Shown: positions 7,801-52,332 of the stretch, in pieces
How positions within the stretch are numbered: the stretch's first letter is position 1
Layout: each line of letters starts with the position of its first letter
NCBI RefSeq assembly: GCF_024158125.1
Contig: NZ_JAMZFT010000003.1
Location: 1 to 64,000 of the forward strand
DNA length: 64,000 nt
Source: Futiania mangrovi
GTDB lineage: Bacteria > Pseudomonadota > Alphaproteobacteria > Futianiales > Futianiaceae
Direction of reading: 5' to 3'
Made by a program: the position numbers and the translations under genes
Notes under the pieces: generated by a model
Told to the model about the DNA's origin: nothing
Seen by the model: the letters and a program-made list of their open reading frames with translations, nothing else
Database searches by the model: none

Positions 7801-9329
7801 GCGAACGCACCCGTCGCGGGGTTCAGCGCGATGTCGGCACGCCTGCCGCCAAGCATGTTCGCCCGCAGCACGGGGAAGGCGGCCGCGCCCGGCTGCTTGG
7901 CGATGAAGGCCGACAGCATGTAGGTGGTCTCGGCCGCGGGGACGGTCAGCGTCTGGCCCGCCTGCGCCCAGCCGTTGCCGGGATCGGCAAGGAGTGCCGC
8001 CGCCTCCCCTCCCGCGGGGTCCGGGGCGGCGCGCGGCGTGACCTGCGCACCGTCGACGAGGCCCCAGGCAGGCCCCGCAAGATCCGGATCGGCGAGAAGG
8101 TTTGCGCCCCCCGGCGCGGGGTCGCAGACGATCCGCCCGCGCCAGGGATAGGCAGGCTGGAAAGGCGCACCCGTCCACGGGTCGGGGAGCGCGTTGCCGG
8201 CAGGCACGTCCATCATCAGGAACGGGTTGAAAACGACGCCGTGGCCGCGCGCCTTCAGTTCGGCGATGGCCTGGAGCACGCTGTCGTCAGAGGGCGTGCC
8301 GCCATAGGCAGGCTGGCCGTCGATCCGGCTGACGAGATGGGCCTCAGCACGCCCTACCCCGCCCGCGCGCCAGGTGAGCGGCGCAGTGGTCTTGGACGCG
8401 ACCTCCACACCGGGACGGACCTCGCAACGTCCGCAGCGCAGGTCGGTGCCGAACCAGCTGACGACGAGCGAGACGGAACCGAGATTGGGCGCGGCGGCGT
8501 CGAGGGCGTCGAGCGAGGCCAGAAGATCGGGCTGGCCCGTCGCGGTGTTCAGGTTCTCGCCCGCACTGGTGCCCGCGCCGTCGGTCTTGACCACGCCATC
8601 GGTCGCGAGCGCGAACTCGCCCGCACCGGGGATGAGGGCGATCGCCTCGATCCGCTCCTCGAAGGAGGGGCCGCCGTCCGCAGCGGGGACAGGACGGACG
8701 ACCTCGAACGACAATTGCGGCACGCGGTTGCCGAAGGGGCCGAGGGGCAGATCCTCGAACACGACATAGGCGAGGTCGCGGTAGGCAGGCGCGTTGCCCG
8801 CACCCTCCACCATCTCGATCAGCGGGTCGGGAAGCTGATCGCCAGCCCCCTTGTGAACGCGGATAGCGAGACCGGTGAGGTCGAGCGGGCGGCCGTCAGC
8901 CCAGATGCGCCCGACGCGCGCGATGGGCCCCTCGCACAAGCCAATCGCGAAGGAGGCGGAATACTCGTACTCGGTGACCGTGGAGGACGCGCCGCCGCCC
9001 AGGCCCTTGCCGCCGCCGGCGCTGCGGGTCGTCGCGGTCTCGCGGAAGCGGGCGGCCCAGATCACCTGCCCCGCGATGCGCGCGCGCCCGAAGACGGCGG
9101 GGATGGCCGCCCCCTCCGCACCGCCCTGAATGTGCAGGTCGGTGAGACGCGGCCCCTCCCGGCGGACGGGCGCGGGCGCAAACAGCGCGGAATCGATGAG
9201 CGTGCCCGCAAGGCCGCCGACGGCCGCGCCGATCTGCGCGCCGGTCAGCGCATAGCCGCCGATGCCGAGGCCGGGCAGCAGCGCGCCGCCGGCCGCGGAA
9301 CCCGCGGCAGTGAGTAACAACGTGGCCAT
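4845..9329 (-). CDS. GTA baseplate multidomain protein (megatron, g15-like)
   Basis: 1494 aa. Forms the distal baseplate tip of RcGTA-type particles. The N-terminus is glycine/alanine-rich and hydrophobic (1-50). The central GTA TIM-barrel-like domain holds YAADWSEYFGHQP (about 688-700), FVGIDAYFPLADW (about 722-734) and PIWLMELGVPAVDKG. A C-terminal phage-tail domain follows. An additional block at about residues 407-583, from ANLLADPDLAGPAWG through GTVGIWRVELREAPE, looks like a beta-sandwich carbohydrate-binding module inserted before the TIM barrel. The Rhodobacter protein is about 1300 aa, so the extra length fits this insertion. The start at 9329 follows g14 by 18 bp. Confidence 0.93.
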   Translation of the reverse strand: MATLLLTAAGSAAGGALLPGLGIGGYALTGAQIGAAVGGLAGTLIDSALFAPAPVRREGPRLTDLHIQGGAEGAAIPAVFGRARIAGQVIWAARFRETATTRSAGGGKGLGGGASSTVTEYEYSASFAIGLCEGPIARVGRIWADGRPLDLTGLAIRVHKGAGDQLPDPLIEMVEGAGNAPAYRDLAYVVFEDLPLGPFGNRVPQLSFEVVRPVPAADGGPSFEERIEAIALIPGAGEFALATDGVVKTDGAGTSAGENLNTATGQPDLLASLDALDAAAPNLGSVSLVVSWFGTDLRCGRCEVRPGVEVASKTTAPLTWRAGGVGRAEAHLVSRIDGQPAYGGTPSDDSVLQAIAELKARGHGVVFNPFLMMDVPAGNALPDPWTGAPFQPAYPWRGRIVCDPAPGGANLLADPDLAGPAWGLVDGAQVTPRAAPDPAGGEAAALLADPGNGWAQAGQTLTVPAAETTYMLSAFIAKQPGAAAFPVLRANMLGGRRADIALNPATGAFATKTFSGAVILEAGVEDHGTHWRPWMRFRNPSSSTVRVEIYPAVGLVSAFPNYSGGATGTVGIWRVELREAPERPVDNTPLAAAQVAAFFGTASPAQFSVSGSTVTYSGPPEWSYRRFVLHYAHLCAAAGGVDAFLLGSELRALTQVRSGPGVYPAVDALRALASDVRAILGPSVKIGYAADWSEYFGHQPADGTGDVFFHLDPLWADGNVDFVGIDAYFPLADWRDGEGHADALAGFRPYDPAYFAANVAGGEGFDWYYPDEAARIAQTRVPITDGAYGEPWVFRPKHLAAWWTNAHRDRVSGIRKAQATGWVPQSRPIWLMELGVPAVDKGANQPNLFLDPKSSESALPAFSDGAKDEFVQRRALDAVLGYWQPEAGNNPVSTVYGGPMVDPARIHLWAWDARPFPDFPARLSVWRDGENWRRGHWLTGRLGLVPLADLIAVLCARAGVTNVDVTRVEGLVAGYALDRVMSPRAALEALLATWRVDVVERGATLVFATRGGAVPRDMDLAGLALASEDEAPRLPALRQTRADPGPLPASVKLSFVDALGDYARSAVEARRAATLTRGVEVADAAVVLAADDAVALAEAALAEAWSARTVWRFALPPAFLDVEAGDVLRLALPEGPRLVRVTRTGWTDRVEVEAVAHDGAVRVRADGDAGTPNLASPALRGPVDLAFLDLPLLDGEDAAHQPWAAAFAEPWPGGVALWRVGEGGALALDLRLDRPALMGRTDTDFYAGPVGVWDRGNQLWVQFPQGGELLARPDGAVLSGANLAAVEGPDGRWEVLQFAAAELVAPGKYRLSRFLRAQGGTEDAMANPVPAGARFVVLDGALRQVPLSLDQRGLPISWRYGPSGRAPDHAFYREETRTFAAFGLRPLSPVHLRARRDPATGDIAFGWIRRTRLGGDSWEGEVPLAEEREVYRLEILSGATPVRIVETATPTWSYPAAAQTADFGAPVGGALTVRVAQVSALFGPGLGRTATLYL

Positions 9330-50500: not shown

Positions 50501-50977
50501 ATGTTCGAGCAAAACCGGATGAAGCGGTACAAGCAGCGGCTGCGGGTGAGCGTCGAACGCGGCGCCAAGGGAACGCTCGAAGCCTATCTGTTCCTCGGTC
50601 AGAACGAACGCCTGATCGAGCTGATGAACGACTATCGCGAGTTTCTTCCGTTCGAGACCCTGCTGGGGAAGTTCCTGCTGATCCCCAAACGGGAGATCAC
50701 CGAGATCACGCCGGTCGACAGCACCGGCGCACCTGTCGGGCTGAAGACCAATCCCTACAAGGTCCTGAACGTGACGCGAAATGCGAGTCCCGAGGAAGTG
50801 CACGACGCCTACCGGACGCTCATGAAGGCCCTGCATCCCGACCGGGTGCGCGCGGCGGGCCTCGGCGATGAGCTGATCCAGTACGCCACGGAGCGCACGC
50901 AGATCGTTGCCGCTGCGTACCAGGAAATCGTCGAGCAGCGCGAGAGGCTCAACCGGATCGACGTACCGGCGGCCTGA
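50501..50977 (+). CDS. Small J-domain protein with beta-rich N-domain (first of three paralogues)
   Basis: 158 aa. The N-terminal about 75 residues form a beta-rich domain: KQRLRVSVERGAKGTLEAYLFLGQNERL then LMNDYREFLPFETLLGKFLLIPKREITEITPVD (each in pieces). The C-terminal J-domain (about 84-145) has YKVLNVTRNASPEEVHDAYRTLMKALHPDRV with the intact HPD at 112-114. J-domains stimulate Hsp70/DnaK; what the N-domain presents to it is unknown. ATG at 50501. Two relatives follow in tandem. I do not know a named family with this combination. Confidence 0.82.
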   Translation: MFEQNRMKRYKQRLRVSVERGAKGTLEAYLFLGQNERLIELMNDYREFLPFETLLGKFLLIPKREITEITPVDSTGAPVGLKTNPYKVLNVTRNASPEEVHDAYRTLMKALHPDRVRAAGLGDELIQYATERTQIVAAAYQEIVEQRERLNRIDVPAA

Positions 50978-51063
50978 GCCACCCTCCCCGGCACGGGCGA
51001 AATCCGCCTCACGCCGGACCGGCCATCTGCGCAATACACTCTCTGGTTGCGCCAAATCTGTTT

Positions 51064-51080
51064 TGCAATTCTTTATTGCA
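51064..51080. promoter_or_regulatory. A/T-rich dyad between the first two J-domain genes
   Basis: Arms TGCAAT and ATTGCA around a five-base centre, in a locally very A/T-rich segment (51050-51125) upstream of the structured RNA candidate. It may be an operator or promoter element. Confidence 0.45.
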
Positions 51081-51149
51081 TACATGATTCTATCAGAGAC
51101 GTTCATTATCTCTTAAGTTTTCTACCGGAAGATGAGTTCTGCCGGCACG

Positions 51150-51256
51150 CACCCTGACGCGTCGGACTGTTGCGTCACTCACCGTATCTCAGGGTGACCC
51201 GAGTGTGCTTCGTGTCTCGGCGCTCCTGCTTGCGTATCCGGCAGGGGCGCCTTTTT
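51150..51256 (+). ncRNA. Candidate structured RNA with terminator upstream of the second J-domain gene
   Basis: The stretch folds into a helix with eight-base arms CACCCTGA (51150-51157) and TCAGGGTG (51189-51196), with an inner CGC/GCG pair. It ends in a strong Rho-independent terminator: arms GGCGCTCCTGC (51219-51229) and GCAGGGGCGCC (51241-51251), one G-T wobble, then TTTTT. The terminator precedes the gene by about 110 bp, so it is either a free small RNA or an attenuating leader. No known RNA family is recognised. Confidence 0.5.
51219..51256 (+). terminator. Rho-independent terminator in the J-domain cluster
   Basis: 11-bp stem (one wobble) with an 11-nt loop followed by five T residues on the plus strand. 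It may end the first gene or the RNA candidate, 112 bp before the second gene. Confidence 0.85.
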
Positions 51257-51368
51257 CGTTCCGGCTCCGGGAAAATACCCAGGCGGCGGCGCGGCTTGGC
51301 AAACATCTTGCTTCCCGCTGTCGTGACGGGGATAGGTACCCGGTCCAGTACAGCGGAGTATGTTGCAT

Positions 51369-51845
51369 ATGTTCGATCATGACCGGATGAAGCGTTCGAA
51401 GCGGCGCGTTCGCGTGCTGGTTGAGCGCGGCGCCAAGGGTGCGATGGAGGCGAGCCTTTTCCTCGCCCATGACGAGCGCCTGATCGACGCGCTCAACGAC
51501 GACCGGAAGTTCCTTCCCCTCGAGACGGTACTGGGCAAGCTCCTGCTCCTACCAAAGAGCGAGATCACCGAGATCACGCCCGTCGACCGCGCGGGCAAGC
51601 CGGTCGGCCTCAACGCCGATCCCTGCAAGATCCTCGGCGTCACGCCGGATGCGACCGCGGAGGATTTGCGTACCGCCTACCTGACCCTCGTGAAGGCGCT
51701 GCATCCCGACCGGGTGCGGGCAGCCGGCCTCGCCGAGGAGTTCATTCAGTACGCCACCGAACGAACACAACTCGTCACGGCGGCCTACCACGAGATCACG
51801 GCCGAGCGCGAAAGACGCGCCAAGGCCGAAGCGCCACCCGCCTGA
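51369..51845 (+). CDS. Small J-domain protein with beta-rich N-domain (second of three paralogues)
   Basis: 158 aa, the same length as the first paralogue and clearly duplicated from it: RMKRSKRRVRVLVERGAKG, EITEITPVD, and KALHPDRVRAAGLAEEF all align. HPD is intact at 112-114, and ATERTQLVTAAYHEI continues the J-domain end. GGAG lies 11 bases upstream of the ATG at 51369, which aligns with the first paralogue's start; an in-frame ATG at 51360 is less likely. Between the copies lies the A/T-rich region with the RNA candidate. Confidence 0.82.
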   Translation: MFDHDRMKRSKRRVRVLVERGAKGAMEASLFLAHDERLIDALNDDRKFLPLETVLGKLLLLPKSEITEITPVDRAGKPVGLNADPCKILGVTPDATAEDLRTAYLTLVKALHPDRVRAAGLAEEFIQYATERTQLVTAAYHEITAERERRAKAEAPPA

Positions 51846-51867
51846 CGGGCCGGAGGGGGCAAGCCGG

Positions 51868-52332
51868 ATGCGCACCGAACCCGCAAGCCCGCAGCTGCGA
51901 CCGCGTACCCGCGTGCGGGTGGCGATGGCGCTGACAGAAGGGCACATGCTCGACGGCTTTCTGTTCATCGCAGAGCGCGAACGTCTCGTCGACCTCGTGA
52001 ACGATGCGCGCCGCTTCCTGCCCTTCGAGACGATCACGGGCGAATTCGTCCTGATCGCCAAGGACGAGATCCGCGCGGTTCGCCCCTTCGAGGGGCGCGG
52101 CCCTGCACACGCGATCTTCACCGGCGACCCCTACACGGTCCTGGGCGTGCACAGCGACGATAGCGACGAGGCGATCAAGCAGGCCTATTACGCGCTGCTG
52201 CGGCAATTGCACCCGCAACAGGCCGAGGCCTCGGGCCTGCACCCGGCGCTCGTCGACTGCGCAGGCGCGCTGACCCGCCGGGTGATCGAGGCCTACGATC
52301 ACATCCTGCGCAACCGGAAACGCGGGCGCTGA
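51868..52332 (+). CDS. J-like protein with degenerate HPD (third paralogue)
   Basis: 154 aa. The same two-domain layout: a beta-rich N-domain with RTRVRVAMALTEGHMLDGFLFIAERERLVDLVNDARRFLPFETITGEF (in pieces, 13-60), then a J-like domain with DPYTVLGVHSDDSDEAIKQAYYALLRQLHPQQ in pieces. The key HPD motif is HPQ at 115-117, so DnaK stimulation is unlikely; it may be a regulator or partner of the two active copies. It begins 23 bp after the second copy and is probably co-transcribed with it. Confidence 0.8.
   Translation: MRTEPASPQLRPRTRVRVAMALTEGHMLDGFLFIAERERLVDLVNDARRFLPFETITGEFVLIAKDEIRAVRPFEGRGPAHAIFTGDPYTVLGVHSDDSDEAIKQAYYALLRQLHPQQAEASGLHPALVDCAGALTRRVIEAYDHILRNRKRGR

Follow-up and report, generated by a model that had tools for sequence, protein, structure and literature searches.

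Three consecutive genes for J-domain proteins

The window, i.e., the whole stretch of 64,000 nucleotides of Futiania mangrovi DNA that was analysed, contains three consecutive genes which encode small proteins composed of an N-terminal domain and a C-terminal J-domain. The first-pass annotation had described them as a tandem trio and this turned out to be real: all three open reading frames lie on the forward strand and in each of them the J-domain scores above the cut-off of its profile. The genes and the features discussed below are:

50501 to 50977, forward strand: copy 1, 158 amino acids, DUF6812-type and putatively Sm-like N-terminal domain plus J-domain, HPD at residue 112
50525 to 50740, forward strand: predicted N-terminal barrel domain of copy 1, the construct that was modelled alone
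50750 to 50947, forward strand: J-domain of copy 1
51219 to 51256, forward strand: terminator-like hairpin between copies 1 and 2, 12-bp stem and 9-nt loop, followed by TTTTT
51369 to 51845, forward strand: copy 2, 158 amino acids, architecture as in copy 1, HPD at residue 112
51868 to 52332, forward strand: copy 3, 154 amino acids, architecture as in copies 1 and 2, HPQ at residue 115

A gene caller based on codon preference, with the compared loci as its training set, picked all three frames as coding; in copy 3 it chose an internal GTG (51913) as the start. For copy 2 an alternative ATG is located upstream at 51360; the ATG at 51369 was preferred because it is preceded by GGAG at a distance of about 11 nt and because the proteins of this family start with MF[DE]. 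The amino acid identity amounts to 63% between copies 1 and 2, to 37% between copies 1 and 3 and to 34% between copies 2 and 3. The DnaJ profile (PF00226; cut-off 27.8 bits) matches copies 1, 2 and 3 with 40.1, 33.9 and 34.2 bits, respectively, the J-domain of copy 1 gives structural matches to J-domains with Z values of up to 9.4, and the best NCBIfam match of the J-domain is the DjlA J-domain. A domain profile scan of the three copies (154–158 amino acids) revealed no other domain over its cut-off.

It was shown that the HPD motif of J-domains contacts the interdomain region of DnaK and that replacement of D by N or of H by Q abolishes the stimulation of Hsp70 in every system tested (PMC8215388). 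As noticed in the first reading of the sequence, the alignment places HPD at the same residue in copies 1 and 2 and HPQ in copy 3. The motif is encoded by the codons CAT CCC GAC CGG (HPDR) in copies 1 and 2 and by CAC CCG CAA CAG (HPQQ) in copy 3, i.e., the exchange of D for Q (GAC to CAA) is joined by an exchange of R for Q at the next residue. As the exchange of D for Q requires two base changes and is accompanied by this second replacement, a single sequencing error is excluded. Basic positions of helix II of the J-domain are also lost in copy 3. All homologues outside the window (28 of 28) keep HPD, and the HPQ of copy 3 is unique among at least 29 family members.

Copies 1 and 2 have the characteristics of class C J proteins, i.e., they contain a J-domain with HPD and neither a G/F region, nor a zinc finger, nor a C-terminal beta-sandwich. 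Copy 3 differs in its HPQ and is not claimed here as a functional member of this class. J proteins with a replaced HPD are referred to as type IV, a definition that applies to copy 3, which possesses a clear J-domain with a non-conservative replacement of the motif (HPQQ for HPDR; PMC13254874). By analogy with the D to N exchange and comparable replacements, the D to Q exchange is predicted to be inactivating.

The terminator-like hairpin with the subsequent TTTTT suggests that copy 1 forms a separate transcription unit; it is absent from the consensus terminator scan, the loop limit of which is 8 nt. Copy 3 starts 22 nt past the stop codon of copy 2 and has a GGAGG-type ribosome-binding site, from which we infer that copies 2 and 3 are probably co-transcribed. 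The intergenic stretch upstream of copy 2 (51120–51262) is a strongly folding, RNA-like sequence (z -2.22) with the hairpin at its end. An Rfam search over the surrounding 12 kb resulted in nothing credible, the three sub-threshold matches belonging to families implausible in this place, and the rest of the genome contains no second copy of the stretch between copies 1 and 2.

Fold of the N-terminal domain

The N-terminal domain had been regarded as unrecognised. This holds for the window insofar as the copies mostly score just under the gathering cut-off of the Pfam family DUF6812 (PF20660), i.e., 16.1, 23.4 and 25.6 bits for copies 1, 2 and 3 searched singly at a cut-off of 27.1 bits, copy 3 exceeding it with 27.8 bits in a six-frame search. 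It does not hold for the family, as each of the 22 members scanned matches DUF6812 (22/22; E ≤0.1, best 3.6e-8), and likewise DnaJ (22/22). The domain thereby belongs to a named family, but to one without a settled role, and a literature search returned no paper mentioning DUF6812.

The N-terminal domain of copy 1 modelled alone with AlphaFold2 resulted in a confident model (pLDDT 92.4, pTM 0.77), predicting a small five-stranded barrel with the order strand-strand-helix-strand-strand-strand (E-E-H-E-E-E). The Foldseek search with this model, which the first-pass annotation had proposed together with the structure prediction, gave however no significant match in the PDB (best E 0.3); its list includes Synechocystis Hfq with a probability of 0.98 and a TM of 0.56–0.57 at E-values that are not significant. 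In a second look at the PDB with VIA-align, Hfq/Sm proteins dominate with Z values of 5.2–6.1, which taken alone can mean merely a common barrel, among them Hfq from Caulobacter (6gwk; Z 5.7, 2.1 Å over 51 residues) and from E. coli (4jrk; Z 5.6, 1.5 Å over 47 residues). Searching the PDB sequences with the N-domain profile yielded no match, and a viral-protein fold search resulted in many small barrels, none of them significant or informatively named.

A profile of 60 DUF6812-type domains matches a profile of 20 Hfq proteins with a probability of 82.5% and a score of 29.8 (E 9.8e-6 for a single comparison). The controls stayed at maximally 16.7 for 200 column shuffles of Hfq, at 9.7 for reversed Hfq and at maximally 17.5 for 18 unrelated families. 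In this alignment the invariant lysine of the family and the following isoleucine fall on the Sm2 sequence YKHAIS, and the glycine pair of strands 1–2 falls on LVNGVKLQG of Hfq. The tyrosine and histidine of YKH and the Sm1 motif FDxF are not kept, and the family carries an insert of 12 residues with ERLxDLLND after strand 2. As the E-values of Foldseek are not significant, the assignment rests on the profile comparison and the topology, which point, with moderate confidence, to a divergent barrel of the Sm-like type as the most likely fold of the N-terminal domain.

Distribution of the fusion and Hsp70 complement of the genome

The fusion of DUF6812 and a J-domain is present in 19 of 385 evenly sampled genomes of Alphaproteobacteria, the window genome included, and one further fusion (G227) is interrupted by a stop. 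The named carriers are Parvularculaceae. Three copies were found in the window genome only; elsewhere the protein is single or occurs in two unlinked copies, as in G166 with its two copies on different contigs. Of the 17 genomes in the small order of G147, 4 have a match to the N-terminal domain, which in three of them is part of a full-length fusion, showing that the occurrence of the gene is scattered even between closely related genomes. It had been suggested that the trio represents a chaperone-recruiting module, in which copy 3 could modulate the other two copies. The sequence gives good support to an Hsp70 recruiter with an adaptor N-terminal domain and an inactive member, but not to a conserved module: as the fusions elsewhere are single or unlinked, the trio is a lineage-specific amplification among the genomes surveyed, in which the window genome is the sole representative of its order.

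Among the 28 fusion loci compared there is no shared gene neighbourhood. Histidine kinases up to 8 kb away appeared as the sole recurrent neighbours; these are of different kinds, are linked solely by their shared kinase domains and were judged as background. Other neighbour repeats stay within one genus. Plasmid records contain J-domain matches only. In some of the Parvularculaceae proteins (L009, L010, L012 and L013) DUF6812 and the J-domain are separated by an acidic low-complexity linker of about 100 residues, and at L009, L010 and L012 the fusion gene adjoins a small conserved membrane protein, which by eye we take to be DUF2842.

Standalone DUF6812-type proteins, starting from a size of about 70–100 amino acids, are commoner than the fusions and reach other Pseudomonadota. 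Their genes show a repeated neighbourhood in several alphaproteobacterial families (L118, L121–L124, L127, L129, L131 and L132; around position 8000), the neighbours of which, assigned by eye from conserved open reading frames, are presumably ribF-, ileS- and lspA-like genes and an M16 peptidase gene. As a separate observation, two tandem Hfq domains are encoded within a single open frame of 194 amino acids at L156/L161 (G012:C1:601226-601657).

In one protein (L084:1501-2013, genome G693) DUF6812, scoring above the cut-off with 31.4 bits, is joined to a J-domain that is Pam18-like (HPDQGGS) and not of the DjlA type. That a second kind of J-domain is found on the same barrel speaks for a functional link of the barrel to Hsp70 and suggests that this link originated, or was retained, on more than one occasion.

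The genome encodes one true DnaK, which is located on another contig beside dnaJ, confirming the earlier observation that no DnaK gene is adjacent to the trio. A second match to PF00012 is partial, lies in a frame of 373 amino acids and is probably MreB-like. There are seven J-domain proteins in the genome, trio included. A Pam18-like J protein, KLHPDQGGSDWLAARINAAKDFLL, is encoded at G000:C1:467839-467934 (L050), and the genome also encodes DnaJ and a DjlA-like protein.

Possible role of copy 3 and relation to known systems

The explanation we favour, with an about even chance of being correct, is that two active class C co-chaperones share their docking barrel with a pseudo-J ("type IV") copy 3, which would be firing-incompetent and compete with or dilute them. 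The Sm/Hfq-like barrel (DUF6812) would dock on a specific partner, either a protein or perhaps RNA, and the DjlA-type J-domain would recruit DnaK and trigger its ATPase at the docking site. The three genes arose by tandem duplication in the window lineage, the family being otherwise mostly single-copy and patchy in the alphaproteobacteria. Copies 1 and 2 are predicted to be active on DnaK. Copy 3, which is without the catalytic aspartate and the following basic residue, is expected to give no stimulation of DnaK, but its well-conserved barrel should allow it to dock on the partner of the active copies or to combine with copy 2.

Alternatively, copy 3 could be a duplicate drifting towards loss, its J-domain being free of selection and regulating nothing. 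This is rather unlikely, although the long branch and the high dN of copy 3 speak in its favour. According to an IQ-TREE phylogeny with 29 homologues, copy 1 is the sister of copy 2 (100/97), and the clade comprising the whole trio is moderately supported (94/75), the branch of copy 3 being long (1.56 compared to 0.19 and 0.39 for copies 1 and 2). The dN/dS value of about 0.25 for copies 1 and 2 shows purifying selection; in pairs with copy 3, the dN of which is high relative to copies 1 and 2, it is 0.6–0.7 (about 0.7 for copy 3 and copy 1), values that are unreliable due to the high synonymous divergence and do not establish a strong constraint on copy 3. Drift would also account for an HPQ that no other family member shares, and single copies suffice in other genomes. 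However, copy 3 has an open and codon-typical reading frame and a good ribosome-binding site, its distance from copy 2 is short, and the two base changes from D to Q together with the exchange of R for Q do not look like a fresh single error. Moreover, the score of its N-terminal domain is at least equal to those of its paralogues: against family profiles built without the window sequences, it reaches 76.9 bits (copy 1, 70.1; copy 2, 72.1), and the J-domain 60.3 (copy 1, 80.7; copy 2, 72.0), indicating that the J-domain is the part that was loosened. Weak J-domain scores also occur in the HPD-keeping homologues L029 (51.2) and L030 (60.6), so that copy 3 does not stand alone in this respect.

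It is improbable that the family has primarily an RNA-binding or scaffold role, in which the Hfq-like barrel would bind RNA or a nucleotide and DnaK would secondarily remodel ribonucleoprotein complexes. Such a role would fit to the profile match to Hfq with its Sm2-like lysine and to a basic stretch before strand 1, but the Y and H of YKH are missing, the FDxF of Sm1 is replaced by the helix-bearing insert with ERLxDLLND and no RNA-related neighbours are present at the fusion loci. Furthermore, Sm/SH3-like barrels bind peptides too, which counts against RNA being primary. Decidedly improbable is a mixed ring or oligomer formed by the three copies via their Sm-like barrels, in which the dead J-domain of copy 3 would set the number of DnaK molecules fired at the target, possibly RNA. 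If true, tandem duplication would have given rise to a bacterial co-chaperone that carries its own governor. Finally, it is very improbable that copy 3 works with DnaK or a divergent Hsp70 via a tolerated replacement, comparable to the HPE of E. coli DjlB/DjlC with HscC, as, although HPE is tolerated and a designed J-analogue without HPD is active (PMC13254874), the genome has one true Hsp70 besides the partial, probably MreB-like match, and copy 3 lacks the D, the following R and basic positions of helix II.

Returning to the favoured reading of two active copies and one pseudo-J copy, the trio is similar to class C proteins such as DjlA in having a C-terminal DjlA-type J-domain and a putative specialised N-terminal targeting domain and in lacking a G/F region or client-binding beta-domains. 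DjlA differs by its membrane segment and its TerB-like domain; in the trio the N-terminal domain is a small soluble DUF6812 barrel. With Pfam DUF6812 it agrees in a match across the whole family, the L084 protein and, in the six-frame search, copy 3 being above the cut-off; it deviates in that copies 1 and 2 are below it and in that most non-fusion DUF6812 proteins found here are standalone. With Hfq/Sm proteins it shares the predicted small five-stranded barrel, a profile alignment over the whole domain and the Lys and Ile of YKHAIS, and it is distinguished from them by the 12-residue insert and the missing Y and H. Three points are new: the probable placement of DUF6812 among the Sm/Hfq-like domains, the retention of HPD throughout the family with copy 3 as the one clear exception, and the occurrence of a second type of J-domain on this barrel. 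For DUF6812 this provides a probable fold and superfamily (Sm/Hfq-like), along with a link to Hsp70 in the cell, two types of J-domain being attached to it.

The best-studied type IV case is Pam16, which forms a stable complex with the active Pam18 (PMC13254874). None of the three copies matches the Pam16 profile up to an E of 10, and there is no membrane-anchored Pam18-type partner within the tandem. Similar to Pam18-Pam16 (Tim14-Tim16) and to the HPD-less type IV protein DnaJB13, an active J protein stands beside an HPD-less J-like paralogue; unlike Pam18-Pam16, the active and the HPD-less copies share their N-terminal domain and are bacterial tandem duplicates. In a 2026 review it is described as enigmatic whether HPD-less J proteins are evolutionary accidents or selected regulators (PMC13254874). 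The trio, with a copy predicted to be inactive beside two paralogues that are predicted to be active and carry the same putative docking domain, offers a compact bacterial setting for this question.
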